DNA of 33,533 bases, from IMG/VR virus record IMGVR_UViG_3300025879_000055, positions 1 through 33,533 of that record, one strand, 5' to 3'. Each line of letters starts with the position of its first letter. Position 1 is the first letter of the stretch. The notes under the pieces were generated by a model. It was given only the letters and a program-made list of their open reading frames with translations. It was not told the origin of the DNA and searched no databases. Of this stretch, positions 1 to 33,533 are shown in pieces. Position numbers and translations under genes: made by a program. Source of the stretch: a virus.

Positions 1-122
1 ATAAGGCTAGTGGCAGCAATTTAATCTTCAAAGGTATCAAGACCAGTTCAGGAAATCAAACGGCATCTCTTAAGTCTTTACAGGGCATTACAACTTGGGT
101 ATTAGATGAAGCAGAAGAGTTG
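1..122 (+). repeat. Left copy of the terminal near-repeat (inside terL)
   Basis: Bases 1-122 align without gaps to 33412-33533 with seven mismatches (positions 29, 35, 56, 71, 83, 101 and 122). All are third codon positions of terL and all are silent. This marks where the circular map closes. Confidence 0.95.
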
Positions 123-20712: not shown

Positions 20713-20720
20713 TATATTTG
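20713..20720 (+). promoter_or_regulatory. Bacteroidetes -7 box (TATATTTG) for the 20727 RNA
   Basis: Exact TAnnTTTG match starting one base after the 20512 gene's stop. Transcription would begin about 7 nt downstream, near 20727. Confidence 0.55.
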
Positions 20721-20726
20721 TTTATT

Positions 20727-20820
20727 GTTCCGCTCTCACATTATAGGAACTAAAGAAACAGTTTTTAACCGTTATGTGAGTAGGAGAGGTGAGAGCCTTC
20801 GAAAGCATAGCGGTTTTTTT
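20727..20820 (+). ncRNA. Candidate small structured RNA or leader with terminator
   Basis: About 94 nt between a -7 box and a T7 tract (20814-20820). CCGCT (20730-20734) pairs with AGCGG (20809-20813), so the 5' end closes against the base just before the U run. Inside, CTCACAT (20735-20741) can pair with ATGTGAG (20774-20780); alternatively GCTCTCAC (20732-20739) pairs perfectly with GTGAGAGC (20789-20796). GTTCC/GGAAC (20727-20731 / 20746-20750) is a third option. It could be a stand-alone sRNA or an attenuator for the gene at 20837. Not a recognised family. Confidence 0.55.
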
Positions 20821-23140: not shown

Positions 23141-23172
23141 AAACCTTTTTAAGACATTAGCGTAAACATTAA
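23141..23172 (+). promoter_or_regulatory. Copy 2 of the AAACC-TTTT-CGTA motif
   Basis: AAACCTTTTT starts at 23141 and CGTA at 23161. It matches 28866-28897 in 30 of 32 bases, including 21 identical bases (23152-23172). The next ATG (23189) is 28 bp after CGTA. Confidence 0.65.
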
Positions 23173-23188
23173 CAAACAGGAATTAAAA

Positions 23189-25520: not shown

Positions 25521-25852
25521 AAGTAAGCGGTAAGATTATCAAGTTTGATGAGCGTCAGACAGGCACAAGTAAAGCGGGTAAAGAATGGGTCAAACAGACC
25601 TTTGTAATTGACACAGGAGAAGAGTATAACAACATTCTAGCCTTTGAGGTATTTGGACAGGAGAAGGTCGATAACCTTAATAAGTATAATAAGGTGGATG
25701 ATCAGGTAAGCGTTGAGTTTAACGTGCAATGTAATGAGTGGAAAGGCAGGTACTTCACATCTCTTCAGGCGTGGAGAATAGAAAAAGCAGAGGAAACAAA
25801 ATCCGAGGAGTTGGAATATGAAGCACATGGAGGAACAGGATTACCGTTCTAA
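25517..25852 (+). CDS. OB-fold protein, DUF3127-like, probable ssDNA-binding protein
   Basis: 111 aa. OB-fold strands are recognisable: KVSGKIIKFDERQTGTS, KEWVKQTFVIDTGEEYNNIL, VDDQVSVEFNVQCNEWKGRY and YFTSLQAWRIEKAEE. The C-terminal tail is acidic and ends in GLPF, like the acidic tips of SSB proteins that recruit partners. DUF3127 proteins are known mainly from Bacteroidetes. It overlaps RusA by ATGA and is next to the recombination set, so it likely coats single strands during replication. Confidence 0.75.
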   Translation: MKVSGKIIKFDERQTGTSKAGKEWVKQTFVIDTGEEYNNILAFEVFGQEKVDNLNKYNKVDDQVSVEFNVQCNEWKGRYFTSLQAWRIEKAEETKSEELEYEAHGGTGLPF

Positions 25853-25859
25853 ATCGAAA

Positions 25860-26066
25860 ATGAATATTAAACATAATCTAAGGGTAAGCAGCAACGATAA
25901 GACCTTTACTATTATTCACCAGGAAGGTTATATACAAGGCTCACATTTCTTCATCATCTCATTAGAAGATGATGGAGGAATAGTAGCTAAGTCTTTAAAT
26001 TTAGAGGAGGCAAAAGAAGTTGTTGCTTACCTGAATTCTCACATAATTTTAGCGGAAAATGAATAA
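25860..26066 (+). CDS. Unknown small protein
   Basis: 68 aa from the ATG at 25860 (MNIKHNLRVSSNDKTFTIIH). An ATG at 25818 would extend it by 14 residues into the previous gene; the later start, 8 bp after that gene's stop, is preferred. Beta-rich N-terminal half (QGSHFFIISLEDDGGIVAKS) and a C-terminal helix (LEEAKEVVAYLNSHIIL). It overlaps the next gene by 8 bp. No known family. Confidence 0.55.
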   Translation: MNIKHNLRVSSNDKTFTIIHQEGYIQGSHFFIISLEDDGGIVAKSLNLEEAKEVVAYLNSHIILAENE

Positions 26067-26235
26067 GAAAATCAGTAATACATTGACTAGCTTGTTAGAT
26101 GATTATCAGAGACATTTAAAAGAGCCACTAAGACCTGTTGAAAGAGATCGGGTAAAAGATATAATAGAGGCTTTAGTATACGCCCTAAGAGTTATTAATA
26201 AAAGGAAGGAAGACAACCAAGAAAAACTATTCTGA
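26059..26235 (+). CDS. Unknown 58-aa helical protein
   Basis: The ATG at 26059 overlaps the previous gene by 8 bp and the TGA (26233-26235) shares its A with the next ATG (26235). Begins MNKKISNTLTSLLDDYQRHL; the rest is helical and basic (VERDRVKDIIEALVYALRVI, NKRKEDNQEKLF). Without it the genome would have a 170-bp gap. Function unknown. Confidence 0.65.
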   Translation: MNKKISNTLTSLLDDYQRHLKEPLRPVERDRVKDIIEALVYALRVINKRKEDNQEKLF

Positions 26236-26483: not shown

Positions 26484-26671
26484 TAGATAGTTTAGCGGTA
26501 TTGCAGTCGGTAGTCAAAGACATCGATAAGACATTTGATAAAGACCCATTGATTCGCAGAGTTTGCAAGATGGTTCTTGAAGAGTACAAAGTGGCTTTGA
26601 ATAAGGCTGAAAAGAAAAGAATACAAGAGCTTATTAAAAATAATGAGCCTTCACATAAATGGGATCTATGA
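26480..26671 (+). CDS. Unknown small helical protein
   Basis: 63 aa, charged and helical (DSLAVLQSVVKDIDKTFDKD, VLEEYKVALNKAEKKRIQEL). Overlaps the ribbon gene by 4 bp, and its stop overlaps the ATG of the phosphoesterase (ATGA at 26668). No family recognised. Confidence 0.55.
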   Translation: MIDSLAVLQSVVKDIDKTFDKDPLIRRVCKMVLEEYKVALNKAEKKRIQELIKNNEPSHKWDL

Positions 26672-27810
26672 GCAAGTATGCACCTTACAGAGAAGAAATA
26701 CAGAGCCTTAGGGCTAGTGGCAAAACGAGTCATCAAATAGCGGTTGAGCTATCAGGCAGGTATGGAATCAGCCTTAATGCTCGGTCTATCCGAGAGAATC
26801 TACAAAACTGGAGTAGTGAAAATTCAGAGGTATCAAGAATACTAACAGACAAAGGGCACGATCCTAGTAATTGGTCTCATGCTTGGGTAAAAAGCAAAGA
26901 GGGTACGGTCTTTATAAAGAATACAACAGGTCTAGTCACTCATGAAGACTTTAGAAACGACCTTTTAGAATCGCTTAAAAGTTACTCGCCATCCTTTAAA
27001 AAGATTAAGAGGGAAAAGATTACTGATCCTCATTGCTTAGTGATTGACATCGCTGATCTTCATATAGGTAAACTAGCATCTGCCCTAGAAACAGGTGAGG
27101 AATATAATGTTAGCAAGGCAATTGAACTAGCATCTCAAGGAGTGGCTGGTATCTTGCAGAAGGCAGAAGGATTCAAGATTGATCAGATAGTCTTTGTGAT
27201 AGGCAACGATGTGCTTCATGTAGATACACCAGGAGGAACAACAACAAGCGGAACTAATCAAGATACTGATGGCACTTGGTATGATAACTTCATGGCAGCG
27301 AAAGACCTTTATATTAACGTAATTGAAAAGCTAGTCCAGGAGGCAAATGTTCACATAGTTCACAACCCTTCTAATCACGATTACATGACTGGCTTCATGT
27401 TGGCTGATACAGTCTACTCATGGTTCAGGAAGCATCCGAACATCACCTTTGATGTTAGCATGGCTCATCGTAAGTATTATGCCTATGGTGCAAACTTGAT
27501 AAGCACGTCTCATGGAGATGGGGCAAAGATGCCTGATATGCCTTTGCTGATGGCTAATGAGAGTGGTAAGGCTTGGGCGTCTACAAAGTTCAGGTACATC
27601 TACCTACACCATATTCATCACATGAAAAAGATAAACTTCTTGAGCGGTCAAGACTATCATGGTGCAACGGTTGAGTATTTAAGATCTGTTAGCTATACGG
27701 ACTCGTATCATCATCGTAACGGATACCAACATGTACCAAAGTGCGTAACAGCTTTTGTTCATCATAAAGACTTCGGACAAGTCGCTAGATTAACCCATCT
27801 CTTTAATTAG
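26668..27810 (+). CDS. DNA-binding metallophosphoesterase (calcineurin-like)
   Basis: 380 aa from 26668; ATGA overlap favours this start over the ATG at 26659. Residues ~5-55 form a helix-turn-helix (EIQSLRASGKTSHQIAVELS). The rest is a two-metal phosphoesterase: D130-x-H132 (IADLHIG), G-N-D at 179-181 (VIGNDVLH), N-H-D at 236-238 (NPSNHDYM), His282 (TSHGDG) and H-H-x-H at 314-317 (YLHHIHH). Such phage enzymes may process nucleic acid ends. The last 29 residues and stop (27721-27810) are duplicated, with recoding, just after the HNH gene, so the present 3' end was probably supplied with that insertion. Confidence 0.88.
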   Translation: MSKYAPYREEIQSLRASGKTSHQIAVELSGRYGISLNARSIRENLQNWSSENSEVSRILTDKGHDPSNWSHAWVKSKEGTVFIKNTTGLVTHEDFRNDLLESLKSYSPSFKKIKREKITDPHCLVIDIADLHIGKLASALETGEEYNVSKAIELASQGVAGILQKAEGFKIDQIVFVIGNDVLHVDTPGGTTTSGTNQDTDGTWYDNFMAAKDLYINVIEKLVQEANVHIVHNPSNHDYMTGFMLADTVYSWFRKHPNITFDVSMAHRKYYAYGANLISTSHGDGAKMPDMPLLMANESGKAWASTKFRYIYLHHIHHMKKINFLSGQDYHGATVEYLRSVSYTDSYHHRNGYQHVPKCVTAFVHHKDFGQVARLTHLFN

Positions 27811-27854
27811 GGATAATTGGCTTGTCTTTAAGGATATTTTTTTTAACTTTGTTT

Positions 27855-28409
27855 ATGAGTAAATTTTATACAATTCCAAACACTAACGGTCTTTATGAAA
27901 TCAATGAAGGCTCAGAGATAAGAAGAATAAAGCATAGGGTTAAAAACAACATCAACGGAGGAACTAGGTCGGTTGGTGGTAAGATTCTATCTCAAAAAAC
28001 AAAAAGCAACGGATATAAAGAAGTTGCCCTTTATATTGAGCCACAAAAAGGAGTTATGAGGTATGTTCATAGACTTATGTATCAAACCTTTGTTGGCGAA
28101 ATACCCAGTGGTTATGAGATAAATCATATTAATGGTGATAAATCAGATAATAAAATAACTAATCTTGAGCTTGTCACACCTAGCCAAAACAGACTACATT
28201 CATGGCATGTATTAGGAAATAAAAACCTAAAAGCCATGAAGGGAGAGAATCATCCTAGGGCGATTGTTAGCGAAGACTTTGTAAGAAAAGCAAAAGATCA
28301 ATATAAAAACGGTATAAGCGTAAGAGATATTTACGACAACTGTAAAGAGAAAATTACACTATCTTCATTGAGAAAGATTTGCTATGGGCAAACATGGAGG
28401 CATATATAA
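27855..28409 (+). CDS. HNH homing endonuclease, NUMOD4-like, inserted at a gene 3' end
   Basis: 184 aa from the ATG at 27855; a TTG at 27822 would add only hydrophobic non-conserved residues. The N-terminus FYTIPNTNGLYEINEGSEIRR resembles the NUMOD4 repeat. The HNH core is YVHRLMYQTFVGEIPSGYEI then NHINGDKSDNKITNLELVT, with His72, Asn90-His91, Asn99 and Asn103. The C-terminal helix-turn-helix ends in LRKICYGQTWRHI. It cuts DNA at a target site to spread its own gene. It ends exactly where a second copy of the phosphoesterase 3' end begins. Confidence 0.9.
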   Translation: MSKFYTIPNTNGLYEINEGSEIRRIKHRVKNNINGGTRSVGGKILSQKTKSNGYKEVALYIEPQKGVMRYVHRLMYQTFVGEIPSGYEINHINGDKSDNKITNLELVTPSQNRLHSWHVLGNKNLKAMKGENHPRAIVSEDFVRKAKDQYKNGISVRDIYDNCKEKITLSSLRKICYGQTWRHI

Positions 28410-28504
28410 GACAAGGCTACCAGCACGTTCCTAAATGCGTAACAGGTTTCCTTCACCACAAAGAGTTCGGTCAGGTCGCAAGGCTAACCCATCTCTTTAA
28501 ATAA
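28409..28504 (+). pseudogene. Displaced 3' end of the metallophosphoesterase gene
   Basis: In frame, 28415-28504 reads GYQHVPKCVTGFLHHKEFG then QVARLTHLFK and a stop. It matches residues encoded at 27721-27810 at 25 of 29 positions (71 of 90 bases). There is no start codon. The HNH stop codon (28407-28409) touches it. This is most simply the original gene tail, pushed downstream when the HNH gene arrived together with a donor version of the same tail. Confidence 0.85.
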
Positions 28505-28865: not shown

Positions 28866-28897
28866 AACCCTTTTTTAGACATTAGCGTAAACATTAA
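28866..28897 (+). promoter_or_regulatory. Copy 4 of the AAACC-TTTT-CGTA motif
   Basis: AACCCTTTTTT starts at 28866 and CGTA at 28886, 20 bp apart. Bases 28877-28897 are identical to 23152-23172. It is 37 bp (CGTA to ATG) before the accessory operon at 28923. Confidence 0.65.
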
Positions 28898-28922
28898 TAA
28901 TAACAGAAAAACATAACAAAAA

Positions 28923-31586: not shown

Positions 31587-31774
31587 GTATTATTGACAAG
31601 GCTCCATCTTGGAAAAAGATATGTATCTGCATATTAAAAAATGATATGTATTTAACAGGCTTAGGGTATAGCGGATTCACTTCAAAATATTATCATGAAT
31701 TAAAAAGAATAGAGTTGCTCGCTAGAGAATCATCAGGAGGGCAAATAAAAATCCCTTTTGATAGGTGTATATAA
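31493..31774 (+). CDS. Stand-alone copy of the IbrA C-terminal motif
   Basis: 93 aa. Residues ~15-60 contain WESRCYPGGIPDEVPL and APSWKKICICILKNDMYLTG LGYSG, close to SWKRFAITILKNDHTCKYMGLA at the end of the IbrA-like protein of the same operon, and to the (Y)xxGIPDE...SW+R.....LKNDY stretch of full-length IbrA. It may be a split or duplicated terminal domain. The start at 31493 gives a 94-bp overlap with the previous gene; no later ATG would keep the motif. Last gene of the operon. Confidence 0.65.
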   Translation: MVEQLQERIKDYTSKWESRCYPGGIPDEVPLSIIDKAPSWKKICICILKNDMYLTGLGYSGFTSKYYHELKRIELLARESSGGQIKIPFDRCI

Positions 31775-31787
31775 CTTAAACAAACGG

Positions 31788-31852
31788 CTTCTAAGCTATT
31801 GTAACTTAAAATGATATACTAAGCCTATTTAAAAAAGATAGTCGCTTAGAAG
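31788..31852 (+). promoter_or_regulatory. Long inverted repeat before terS
   Basis: CTTCTAAGC (31788-31796) and GCTTAGAAG (31844-31852) are a perfect nine-base inverted repeat 47 bp apart. It could be the end hairpin of the Ibr operon or a paired operator. No U tract follows. Confidence 0.5.
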
Positions 31853-31875
31853 GAAATTAAATAAGCGATAAGGGT

Positions 31876-31905
31876 TTTGTAGTTTAAAACTGTTTGTTAT
31901 ATTTG
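31876..31905 (+). promoter_or_regulatory. Bacteroidetes promoter for terS
   Basis: TTTG (31876-31879) and TATATTTG (31898-31905) with an 18-bp spacer match the Bacteroidetes -33/-7 promoter. terS begins 20 bp after. Confidence 0.75.
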
Positions 31906-31924
31906 AATATCCAATACAAAATCA

Positions 31925-32185
31925 ATGGCAGGAAGGGGTGGTGCAAGACCTGGAGCAGGTCGTAAAAGCAAGACAGACGAGCAAAGGATTAGAGACTTAA
32001 CCAGTCCTTATGTCGATGGGGCTATTCAGAAGGTTGTTGATATAATGACAAACGCTGATAAGTCTAGCGATCAACTTGCAGCTGCTAAGTTATTGCTTGA
32101 ATATCATTTTGGTAAGCCTAAGCAAAGCACTGACATTACAAGTGGAGGTGAAAAGATAAGCGTTCCTGTTTCGGAATGGATTTAG
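31925..32185 (+). CDS. terS: Terminase small subunit
   Basis: 86 aa, short for the family. The basic Gly/Arg N-terminus MAGRGGARPGAGRKSKTDEQ is a hallmark of phage small terminases; helices follow (IRDLTSPYVDGAIQKVVDIM, QLAAAKLLLEYHFGKPKQS). It recognises the packaging site and loads the large subunit. A clear promoter lies directly upstream. It is separated from terL by 955 bp containing an RNA region and an HNH gene, instead of the usual close pairing. Confidence 0.8.
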   Translation: MAGRGGARPGAGRKSKTDEQRIRDLTSPYVDGAIQKVVDIMTNADKSSDQLAAAKLLLEYHFGKPKQSTDITSGGEKISVPVSEWI

Positions 32186-32198
32186 TTTAGTATATTTG
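32169..32198 (+). promoter_or_regulatory. Promoter at the end of terS, driving the noncoding RNA
   Basis: TTTC (32169-32172, one base off TTTG) and TATATTTG (32191-32198) with an 18-bp spacer, the same geometry as the terS promoter. Transcription should begin near 32205, just inside the first helix. Confidence 0.6.
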
Positions 32199-32201
32199 CA
32201 T

Positions 32202-32462
32202 CAGTCTGTGAATCGGGGAAACTACGGGGCGACAGATTGATTAGCACAAGCCTGATAGCATGGTGCAACAGCAACTAAAGGAGTACGCTGGCTAGGGTCG
32301 CAACAGTCGATGAGCGACAAGAATTGAGGGTGATTCCTCTAAGAACTCCAAGCATTATCAATTTGACTGTGTTTTGATAATGTACCCTATGTGAACTCAC
32401 CGACAGCGACAAGCATATTTGGGTTAAGTTTGGTCTATCACTAGGCTAAACTATACCCTTTT
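32202..32462 (+). ncRNA. Candidate structured noncoding RNA between terS and terL
   Basis: About 260 nt without a credible ORF but with many helices: CAGTCTGT/ACAGATTG (32202-32209/32232-32239), GTCGC/GCGAC (32297-32301/32314-32318), GAGG/CCTC (32326-32329/32336-32339), CATTATCAA/TTGATAATG (32353-32361/32374-32382) and AGTTTGGTCTA/TAGGCTAAACT (32427-32437/32442-32452, 11 bp). Its G+C is higher than that of the surrounding gaps. It has a promoter before and terminators after. It lacks the tRNA-like T arm of tmRNA. Not identified with any family I know. Confidence 0.65.
32421..32462 (+). terminator. Terminator of the noncoding RNA
   Basis: GGGT (32421-32424) pairs with ACCC (32455-32458), then a 2x2 internal loop and the 11-bp stem with loop TCAC (32438-32441), followed by TTTT (32459-32462). 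Confidence 0.65.
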
Positions 32463-32613
32463 AAATCTACCTCTAGCTCTAAGCATATTATATTACTAGA
32501 ATATTATAAACAACTTATCGTTCATACAATCAATTCAAGAGGCGGTCAGAAATGGTTGCCTTTTTTTATACCTATGTGTGTGCTGATTAGCTAAAACATT
32601 AGTATATTGAGGT
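32463..32613 (+). other. AT-rich gap between the RNA and the HNH gene
   Basis: No ORF. Contains the second terminator (32541-32567) and a TATATTG sequence (32603-32609) that could be a weak -7 box just ahead of the HNH ATG. Confidence 0.4.
32541..32567 (+). terminator. Second intrinsic terminator before the HNH gene
   Basis: GGCGGTC (32541-32547) pairs with GGTTGCC (32554-32560) including G-U pairs, loop AGAAAT, followed by T7. Confidence 0.8.
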
Positions 32614-33156
32614 ATGAAAGAAATATGGAAAGACATAATAGAATTTAACTCTGAGTATCAAATATCTAATTTTGGTAGAATCAGAAGTAAGGAAGCAGTT
32701 ATTATCAGATCAAATGGCAGACCACACAAAAGAATTAGTAAAATCCTTAAGACAGCTGTAAGTAAAAAGTATAAATACCCACGTGGTGCGGTTTGTGTTA
32801 ATAAGAAAATGAAACCTTACAAGATACACAGGCTTGTAGCTAGATACTTTGTTGCAAACCCTTATGGAAAGCCTGAGGTTAATCACATAGATGGAAACCC
32901 ACAAAACAATCATTACACAAATTTAGAATGGGTTACTAGGCAAGAAAACATAAAACATTGCATTGACAACAACCTTCAAACTGCTTTTAAGGGTGAGGAG
33001 GTTGGAACGTCTATTTTAAAGGAAGATCAAGTAAAGCAAATAAGAAAAGAGTTTAAACCAAGAATTGTAACAAGGTCATTTTTAGCACAAAAATACAATG
33101 TGTCAGAAGCGACAATAAAAGATATTATATACAGAAGGACATGGAGGCACGTGTAA
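32614..33156 (+). CDS. HNH homing endonuclease with NUMOD4, between terS and terL
   Basis: 180 aa. NUMOD4 at residues 3-28 (EIWKDIIEFNSEYQISNFGR). HNH core: YKIHRLVARYFVANPYGKPE (69-88) then VNHIDGNPQNNHYTNLEWVT, with His72, Asn90-His91, Asn99 and Asn103. A C-terminal helix-turn-helix (LKEDQVKQIRKEFKPR, RSFLAQKYNVSEATIKDIIY) ends in RRTWRHV, like the other HNH protein here (GQTWRHI). The last 16 bp overlap the terL start. Known terminase-linked HNH proteins of HK97 type are different; NUMOD domains point to a mobile homing gene. Confidence 0.9.
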   Translation: MKEIWKDIIEFNSEYQISNFGRIRSKEAVIIRSNGRPHKRISKILKTAVSKKYKYPRGAVCVNKKMKPYKIHRLVARYFVANPYGKPEVNHIDGNPQNNHYTNLEWVTRQENIKHCIDNNLQTAFKGEEVGTSILKEDQVKQIRKEFKPRIVTRSFLAQKYNVSEATIKDIIYRRTWRHV

Positions 33157-33533
33157 AATTAATTTCTAAATTTAAGCCTTTATATCAAGACGATAGTAGG
33201 TACTTTGTGCTTACGGGGGGTCGAGGAGCAAGCAAAAGTTTTCATGTTGCTGACTTCCTTTTAAAGCTATCTTATGAGTCTGGTCATAACATACTGTTTA
33301 CCAGGTACACAATGATCAGTGCAGGTATATCAGTTATTCCTGAGTTCACAGACAAAATAGACAGATATGATCTAGAAGGTGTCTTTGCTGTCAATCAAAG
33401 CGAGATAGTTAATAAGGCTAGTGGCAGCAATTTAATCTTTAAAGGAATCAAGACCAGTTCAGGAAACCAAACGGCATCTCTCAAGTCTTTACAAGGCATT
33501 ACAACTTGGGTCTTAGATGAAGCAGAAGAGTTA
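33141..33533 (+). CDS. terL: Terminase large subunit, 5' part (continues at position 1)
   Basis: 131 codons, open to the end of the window. Starts MEARVKLISKFKPLYQDDSR; Walker A is LTGGRGASKSFH (~24-35), with Ser in place of the last Gly of the P-loop, a common phage variant; Walker B is WVLDEAEEL at the end (123-131). The ATG lies inside the last codons of the upstream HNH gene (HNH Thr-Trp-Arg). The frame continues into position 123 after removal of the 122-bp overlap. Confidence 0.93.
   Translation, partial: MEARVKLISKFKPLYQDDSRYFVLTGGRGASKSFHVADFLLKLSYESGHNILFTRYTMISAGISVIPEFTDKIDRYDLEGVFAVNQSEIVNKASGSNLIFKGIKTSSGNQTASLKSLQGITTWVLDEAEEL
33412..33533 (+). repeat. Right copy of the terminal near-repeat
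   Basis: Same terL segment as 1-122, 115 of 122 identical, all differences silent. Confidence 0.95.

Follow-up and report, generated by a model that had tools for sequence, protein, structure and literature searches.

Tailed-phage morons are autonomous promoter-gene-terminator units that sit between genes which are adjacent in relatives. The unit described here was found in a 33,533-nt virus record of Bacteroidota phage type (the window, i.e., the whole stretch of DNA that was analysed), and it resembles morons in having its own promoter and terminator and in being inserted between genes that adjoin each other in relatives, in this case terS and terL. But while morons carry a protein as cargo, the cargo here would be a noncoding RNA, and an HNH gene shares the inserted block. 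Similarities also exist with the free-standing homing endonuclease genes of T4-like phages, in that an HNH gene lies at an essential-gene junction with structured RNA and terminators nearby; the signals described for T4, however, occupy the ribosome site or the gene itself, whereas the unit here is 260 nt long, has a promoter of its own and precedes the gene (PMC2988022). Homing genes near terminase genes are known, and, like here, an HNH_3-type gene adjoins terL in those systems, but no noncoding RNA unit was found for them in the accessible text of that paper, in which the term "non-coding" has 0 matches (PMC10448857). Finally, the intergenic sRNAs of Bacteroides share the TAnnTTTG promoter box, the size class and the intrinsic terminator (PMC7366714), but they are chromosomal and measured, whereas the RNA here is phage-borne, known from its sequence, and without similarity in the 397 + 395 genomes searched. 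We favor the reading that the locus is an "RNA moron", a self-contained transcription unit for a noncoding RNA, with a free-standing homing endonuclease gene as its neighbour, and judge the case for it to be about evenly balanced.

The features of the locus are collected in Table 1. ORF calls leave the 428 nt between the terS-like gene and the HNH gene (32186-32613) noncoding: this gap contains no + strand ORF of at least 20 aa, and all five overlapping ORFs of at least 20 aa are on the minus strand. The 3' end of the HNH gene overlaps the terL start (33141). The RNA unit and the HNH gene together make up an inserted block of about 955 nt (32186-33140), located exactly at the terS/terL junction. 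Because the two ends of the record overlap (window 1-121 against 33412-33532, 121 nt at 95%, the differences being apparently between strains), terL spans the record ends.

Table 1. Coordinates of signals, genes and predicted RNA parts at the terS/terL junction of the window
Feature	Position	Strand	Basis and remarks
terS-like gene, 86 aa	31925..32185	+	ORF; weak match to PHROG phrog_2538 (terminase small subunit), E 2e-4; precedes terL; left border of the insertion
-33 box TTTC, imperfect, within terS	32169..32172	+	Scan; 1 mismatch to TTTG, spacer 18
-7 box TATATTTG of the RNA unit	32191..32198	+	Agrees with TAnnTTTG, the sigma-A box of Bacteroidota
Putative noncoding RNA, about 260 nt (263 nt)	32203..32465	+	No + strand ORF of at least 20 aa; fold against shuffles; ensemble diversity
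5' part: one hairpin whose loop is G-rich, plus two small ones	32203..32290	+	Predicted; energy 119/400 shuffles, no excess
Central domain: long imperfect stem closing two hairpins	32291..32414	+	Predicted; most pairs at a probability of 0.87-0.98, 0.64 for one inner helix
Terminator 1, -18.8 kcal/mol, tail TTTT	32421..32462	+	Terminator scan
Terminator 2, -9.7 kcal/mol, GAAA loop, tail of seven T	32540..32567	+	Terminator scan
Possible HNH-gene promoter box TATATTGA, one T short of consensus	32603..32610	+	By eye, against TATATTTG in L102
NUMOD4 + HNH_3 endonuclease gene, 180 aa	32614..33156	+	Pfam NUMOD4 1.8e-9, HNH_3 7.9e-11; PHROG 59, 4e-48
terL, 5' part	33141..33533	+	Terminase_3 8e-13; resumes at window position 1, remainder at 120-983

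With the placement of the sigma-A box at -12 to -5 described for F. psychrophilum (PMC9723704), we infer A32203 as the transcription start of the RNA unit, a position within the 5' arm of the first hairpin; the promoter box of Bacteroides is likewise TAnnTTTG (PMC7366714). The -7 box by itself is weak evidence, because the window has 18 such boxes accompanied by a -33 element with at most one mismatch (10 and 8 on the two strands, against 5.25 per strand in shuffles). The promoter reading is strengthened by the 12-mer TTAGTATATTTG, which has only two occurrences in the window (20709 and 32187), each heading a stretch that is closed by a strong terminator, and these are the only two + strand terminators in the window at -15 kcal/mol or better (20814 and 32459). 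Shuffled windows contained on average 0.5 sites at -15 kcal/mol or better and 0.05 at -18 kcal/mol or better (40 shuffles), and because the strength of terminator 1 is rare among them, the predicted ends of the RNA unit are well supported. A separate sigma-70/terminator scan, which is geared to another kind of promoter and counts the stem into the T run, called neither the promoter nor the terminators. Overall, the preliminary description of a noncoding locus between terS and terL with a promoter and two terminators was borne out, with the qualification that the -33 box is imperfect.

The predicted fold of the RNA region (32203-32465) had a z-score of -2.18, with 4/200 shuffles as stable (15/400 in a second run), and its ensemble diversity was as low in only 3/400 shuffles, i.e., the fold is well defined. 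Extending the region slightly (32200-32470) gave a z-score of -2.63 (2/200 shuffles), compared to -1.13 for the minus strand, and extending it further (32200-32580) gave -1.62 (8/100 shuffles as stable). Without terminator 1 (32203-32417), however, the z-score was -0.52, with 62/200 shuffles as stable and 117/400 in a second run; since this body is ordinary, the excess of structure over chance is mostly due to the terminator. The "at least five good helices" reported before are therefore present as predictions (a 10-bp hairpin at 32352-32383, an 11-bp helix inside terminator 1 and several shorter ones), but their stability above chance derives largely from terminator 1, and caution is advisable where a structured RNA is called from helices alone, as such a call may rest chiefly on a terminator. 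The central domain (32291-32414) is predicted to be moderately unusual in its fold compared to shuffles, with 16/400 as low in energy and 11/400 in ensemble diversity. In a scan of 1666 windows along the record, the RNA region ranked ninth and eleventh among the best folds, behind coding stretches. The best fold of all was at 25841-26100 on the + strand (z -4.76, 0/200 shuffles), mostly within the coding ORF 25818-26066.

The ordinary stability of the RNA body bears on a first alternative, namely that the promoter and the terminators are genuine while the intervening RNA is inert, a non-functional spacer left as insertion debris that merely insulates the HNH gene. We regard this as a minor but serious possibility. 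It accords with a body no more stable than shuffles, with conservation being detected nowhere, and with the fact that HNH insertions leave junk elsewhere (the 89-nt partial copy after the second HNH gene, see below). It does not sit well with the GC content, which is 47% at 32203-32410 (99th percentile of the window) in an AT-rich genome, nor with a promoter and two terminators in order around a well-defined ensemble (3/400); besides, 260 dead nt would be expected to vanish fast from a compact phage.

A second alternative, which we consider unlikely, is that the RNA and the two terminators form the 5' region of an HNH-terL transcript, a leader or attenuator setting the level of terL relative to that of terS. 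With two terminators between terS and terL, terL needs either read-through or a new promoter, and homing endonuclease genes of T4 are known to be controlled by terminators and RNA hairpins of their own (PMC2988022). But the hairpin of terminator 1 forms with a pair probability of about 0.98 in the predicted ensemble and no rival pairing is above 0.15, so that no antiterminator is visible. Because nothing competes with the terminator hairpin, a control leader becomes less likely, and the earlier suggestion of a regulator acting on terL by attenuation finds no support in the fold. The HNH gene additionally seems to have its own promoter box at the start codon (in L102, TATATTTG is immediately 5' of the HNH start codon), which also speaks against a leader; because of this apparent box, terL might be transcribed from there despite the two terminators.

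Relatives of terL were taken from viral contigs, named phages and genomes, and 91 loci were examined. Eleven of them were set aside because they had <500 nt upstream, and of the 80 left, L003 is the same phage. In 79/79 other loci, which are not independent cases as many contigs are near-duplicates, the spacing between the upstream ORF and terL was estimated at -29 to +25 nt. We identified this ORF as terS from its position, with a check by eye in L002, L004, L005 and L016 and a check of the annotation in L189, and in the annotated Nonlabens and Leeuwenhoekiella phages terS and terL likewise follow each other without a gap. The collection of homologous terS-terL gaps proposed in the preliminary description thus yielded gapless junctions throughout, and on this ground the RNA and the HNH gene are an insertion at the terL start codon. 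A cousin of the HNH gene is found at the same junction in L099/L100 (2302-4949), where a NUMOD4/HNH_3 gene lies between the Terminase_2 and Terminase_3 genes with its end over the terL start codon; its leader is about 100 nt long, and an RNA like that of the window is absent. This leader holds TTTGATTACAT, which is repeated early in terL and is perhaps the remnant of an older terL start. In two other loci (L016 4550-4620 and L005 3010-3080), tRNA-like sequences with acceptor and T arms recognized by eye are present just 5' of terS, for which ARAGORN made no call.

The same comparison speaks against a role in packaging, either as an RNA similar to the phi29 pRNA or as a cos/pac DNA element beside the terminase genes, for which the position between terS and terL is the only favorable point. 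Since 0/79 other loci have room for it between terL and the preceding ORF, the RNA does not belong to this group's packaging module, and the packaging-site RNA suggested earlier is very unlikely because the relatives lack it. pRNA is a long known family, and the RNA here is without an Rfam match; furthermore, its signals are oriented for transcription.

By its sequence, the HNH gene is of the free-standing homing endonuclease type, with an HNH domain and a DNA-binding NUMOD and a junction that is closed in relatives, its cleavage activity being putative; homing genes in the vicinity of terminase genes have been described (PMC10448857). A link between the RNA and the HNH gene, as envisaged in the preliminary description, is possible to the extent that both are in one inserted block, but HNH relatives elsewhere are found without the RNA, and for this reason their joint arrival is a guess. 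The idea that a leader is a regular component of HNH loci was rejected: among the 31 loci examined of the 79 other HNH loci fetched, 4 have a gap of >200 nt before the HNH gene, and one of these (L103) is a tRNA array. That the RNA is a diverged group I intron or another ribozyme accompanied by its HNH gene is highly improbable: NUMOD4/HNH genes are often intron-borne, and ICP1 has a split terL with a homing gene nearby (PMC10448857), but there was no Intron_gpI match up to E 10 in either 31760-32640 or 32100-33350, and an internal promoter and terminators do not fit. Because terS is complete, terL is complete with its own start and stop, and no intron model matches, we discount this explanation. 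Equally hard to credit is a short peptide (MVQQQLKEYAG, 32259-32294), for although there is an ATG with an 11-codon frame inside the RNA, eleven codons are under the 20-aa limit and the frame sits in predicted helices.

Other HNH genes were observed in related settings. The window contains a second NUMOD4/HNH_3 gene (27822-28503), located 3' of the complete gene 26659-27810. It is followed by an 89-nt, 80% copy of the 3' end of that gene, whose reading frame is open from an ATG within the HNH tail, and we read this partial copy as the mark of homing by partial gene replacement. In L101 (2850-2960), an arrangement like that of the second promoter-terminator unit of the window (20713-20820, see below) precedes another NUMOD4/HNH gene, with TATATTTGC and then a stretch of about 100 nt, in which CCACTAC is complementary to GTAGTGG within the terminator hairpin.

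Group I introns, tmRNA, pRNA, HEARO, 6S, ROOL and GOLLD are Rfam families. A search of Rfam 15 at the gathering score produced 0 matches in the whole window, and a search up to E 10 produced 0 matches in 31760-32640, while 32100-33350 gave a single match, attributed to chance, which is within the HNH gene on the minus strand. This agrees with the initial impression that the RNA matches no familiar family. ARAGORN found 0 tRNA or tmRNA genes in the window. The only other copy of the RNA is from the same phage (L003/L097/L179, one metagenome), which is 99.97% identical over 2.8 kb, the one indel in 2848 nt being a base inserted in the loop of terminator 1. Beyond the same phage, blastn and nhmmer detected no relatives of the RNA in all fetched loci. 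At the DNA level there were none in phages (5 AT-rich chance matches), in plasmids (one chance match), in 27 genomes or records, or in 6 further records; the 397 + 395 genomes gave one match each, of 24 and 31-32 nt, with the rest of the RNA absent. It should be noted that near relatives of the window are possibly missing from the set that was searched.

Searches of viral_contigs with the patterns CGGGGAAACTACGGGG, GGTGCAACAGCAACTAAAG and GGGGAAACTACGGG and with a gapped helix pattern likewise returned no relative except the same phage (nhmmer). The matches to GGTGCAACAGCAACTAAAG were coding or unrelated sequence by eye, and the 22 other matches to the gapped helix pattern were GC-rich and within long open frames. 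A G-rich hairpin loop in L177 was dropped as a relative, because at the sites examined the motif showed no particular link with hairpins. The structure models R1 and R2 were built from two identical rows and are effectively single-sequence, hence weak; R1 found 0/149 genomes, 0/79 HNH loci and only the window itself in 91 sources (90 terL loci and the window), while R2 found, in the 90 terL loci and the window, the window itself and one chance match at E 4.5. As for antisense targets in the phage's own genome, the longest match was 12 nt, a length that was reached by 35/100 shuffles and is not striking. A literature search found no publication on this RNA. The orphan status of such an RNA may reflect youth, fast evolution or undersampling.

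Returning to the RNA as a self-contained transcription unit, the insertion, the lack of an ORF, the promoter box, the strong terminator and the absence of relatives can be read from the DNA itself. As expected of an autonomous unit, it is absent between the same genes in relatives (79/79) and has its own promoter and terminator as sequence signals. We counted in its favor that position +1 lies in the 5' arm of the first helix, that TTAGTATATTTG is shared with a second unit at 20713-20820, that the GC content is high and the fold well defined, and that the + strand, relative to its shuffles, folds better than the minus strand; against it we counted the ordinary stability of the body without the terminator, the lack of a homologue, the lack of a striking antisense target and the HNH relatives that do not carry the RNA. 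Under this reading, transcription by host sigma-A would begin near 32203 and yield an RNA of about 260 nt, which the intrinsic terminator would end near 32462. The RNA unit would thereby be transcribed on its own, and the RNA would act in trans, on the host or a rival phage and not on neighbour genes, and may have arrived together with the HNH gene. Although it is not in Rfam 15 and no match was found, the RNA is of a known kind, as there are precedents both for noncoding RNA units carried by phages and for insertions of homing genes. A bolder reading, which we find distinctly improbable, is that it represents a new phage RNA class that accompanies a homing endonuclease at the terminase junction or is exploited by it, e.g., blocking rivals or tuning the terS:terL ratio, and that with 20713-20820 the phage has two independent noncoding RNA units under one promoter type. 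If transcribed, the unit would exemplify a cargo made of RNA alone, inserted in a terminase operon beside a homing gene, and it could serve to test how a phage keeps terL expressed behind two terminators.

The second promoter-terminator unit, at 20713-20820 on the + strand, is headed by TTAGTATATTTG, comprises about 90 nt and has a terminator hairpin of -18.9 kcal/mol. It has a sub-threshold Rfam match to TEG147 (24.3 bits against a cut-off of 56.1, E 0.006), and the only diverged relative of the gene that follows (L320) lacks it upstream. Within it, CGCTCTCAC can pair with GTGAGAG inside the terminator hairpin, and a small RNA with a pseudoknot is possible from this modelled pairing. Elsewhere in the window, a 35-nt repeat (23141-23175 and 28866-28900, 91% identical) lies near gene starts and is maybe a regulatory site.
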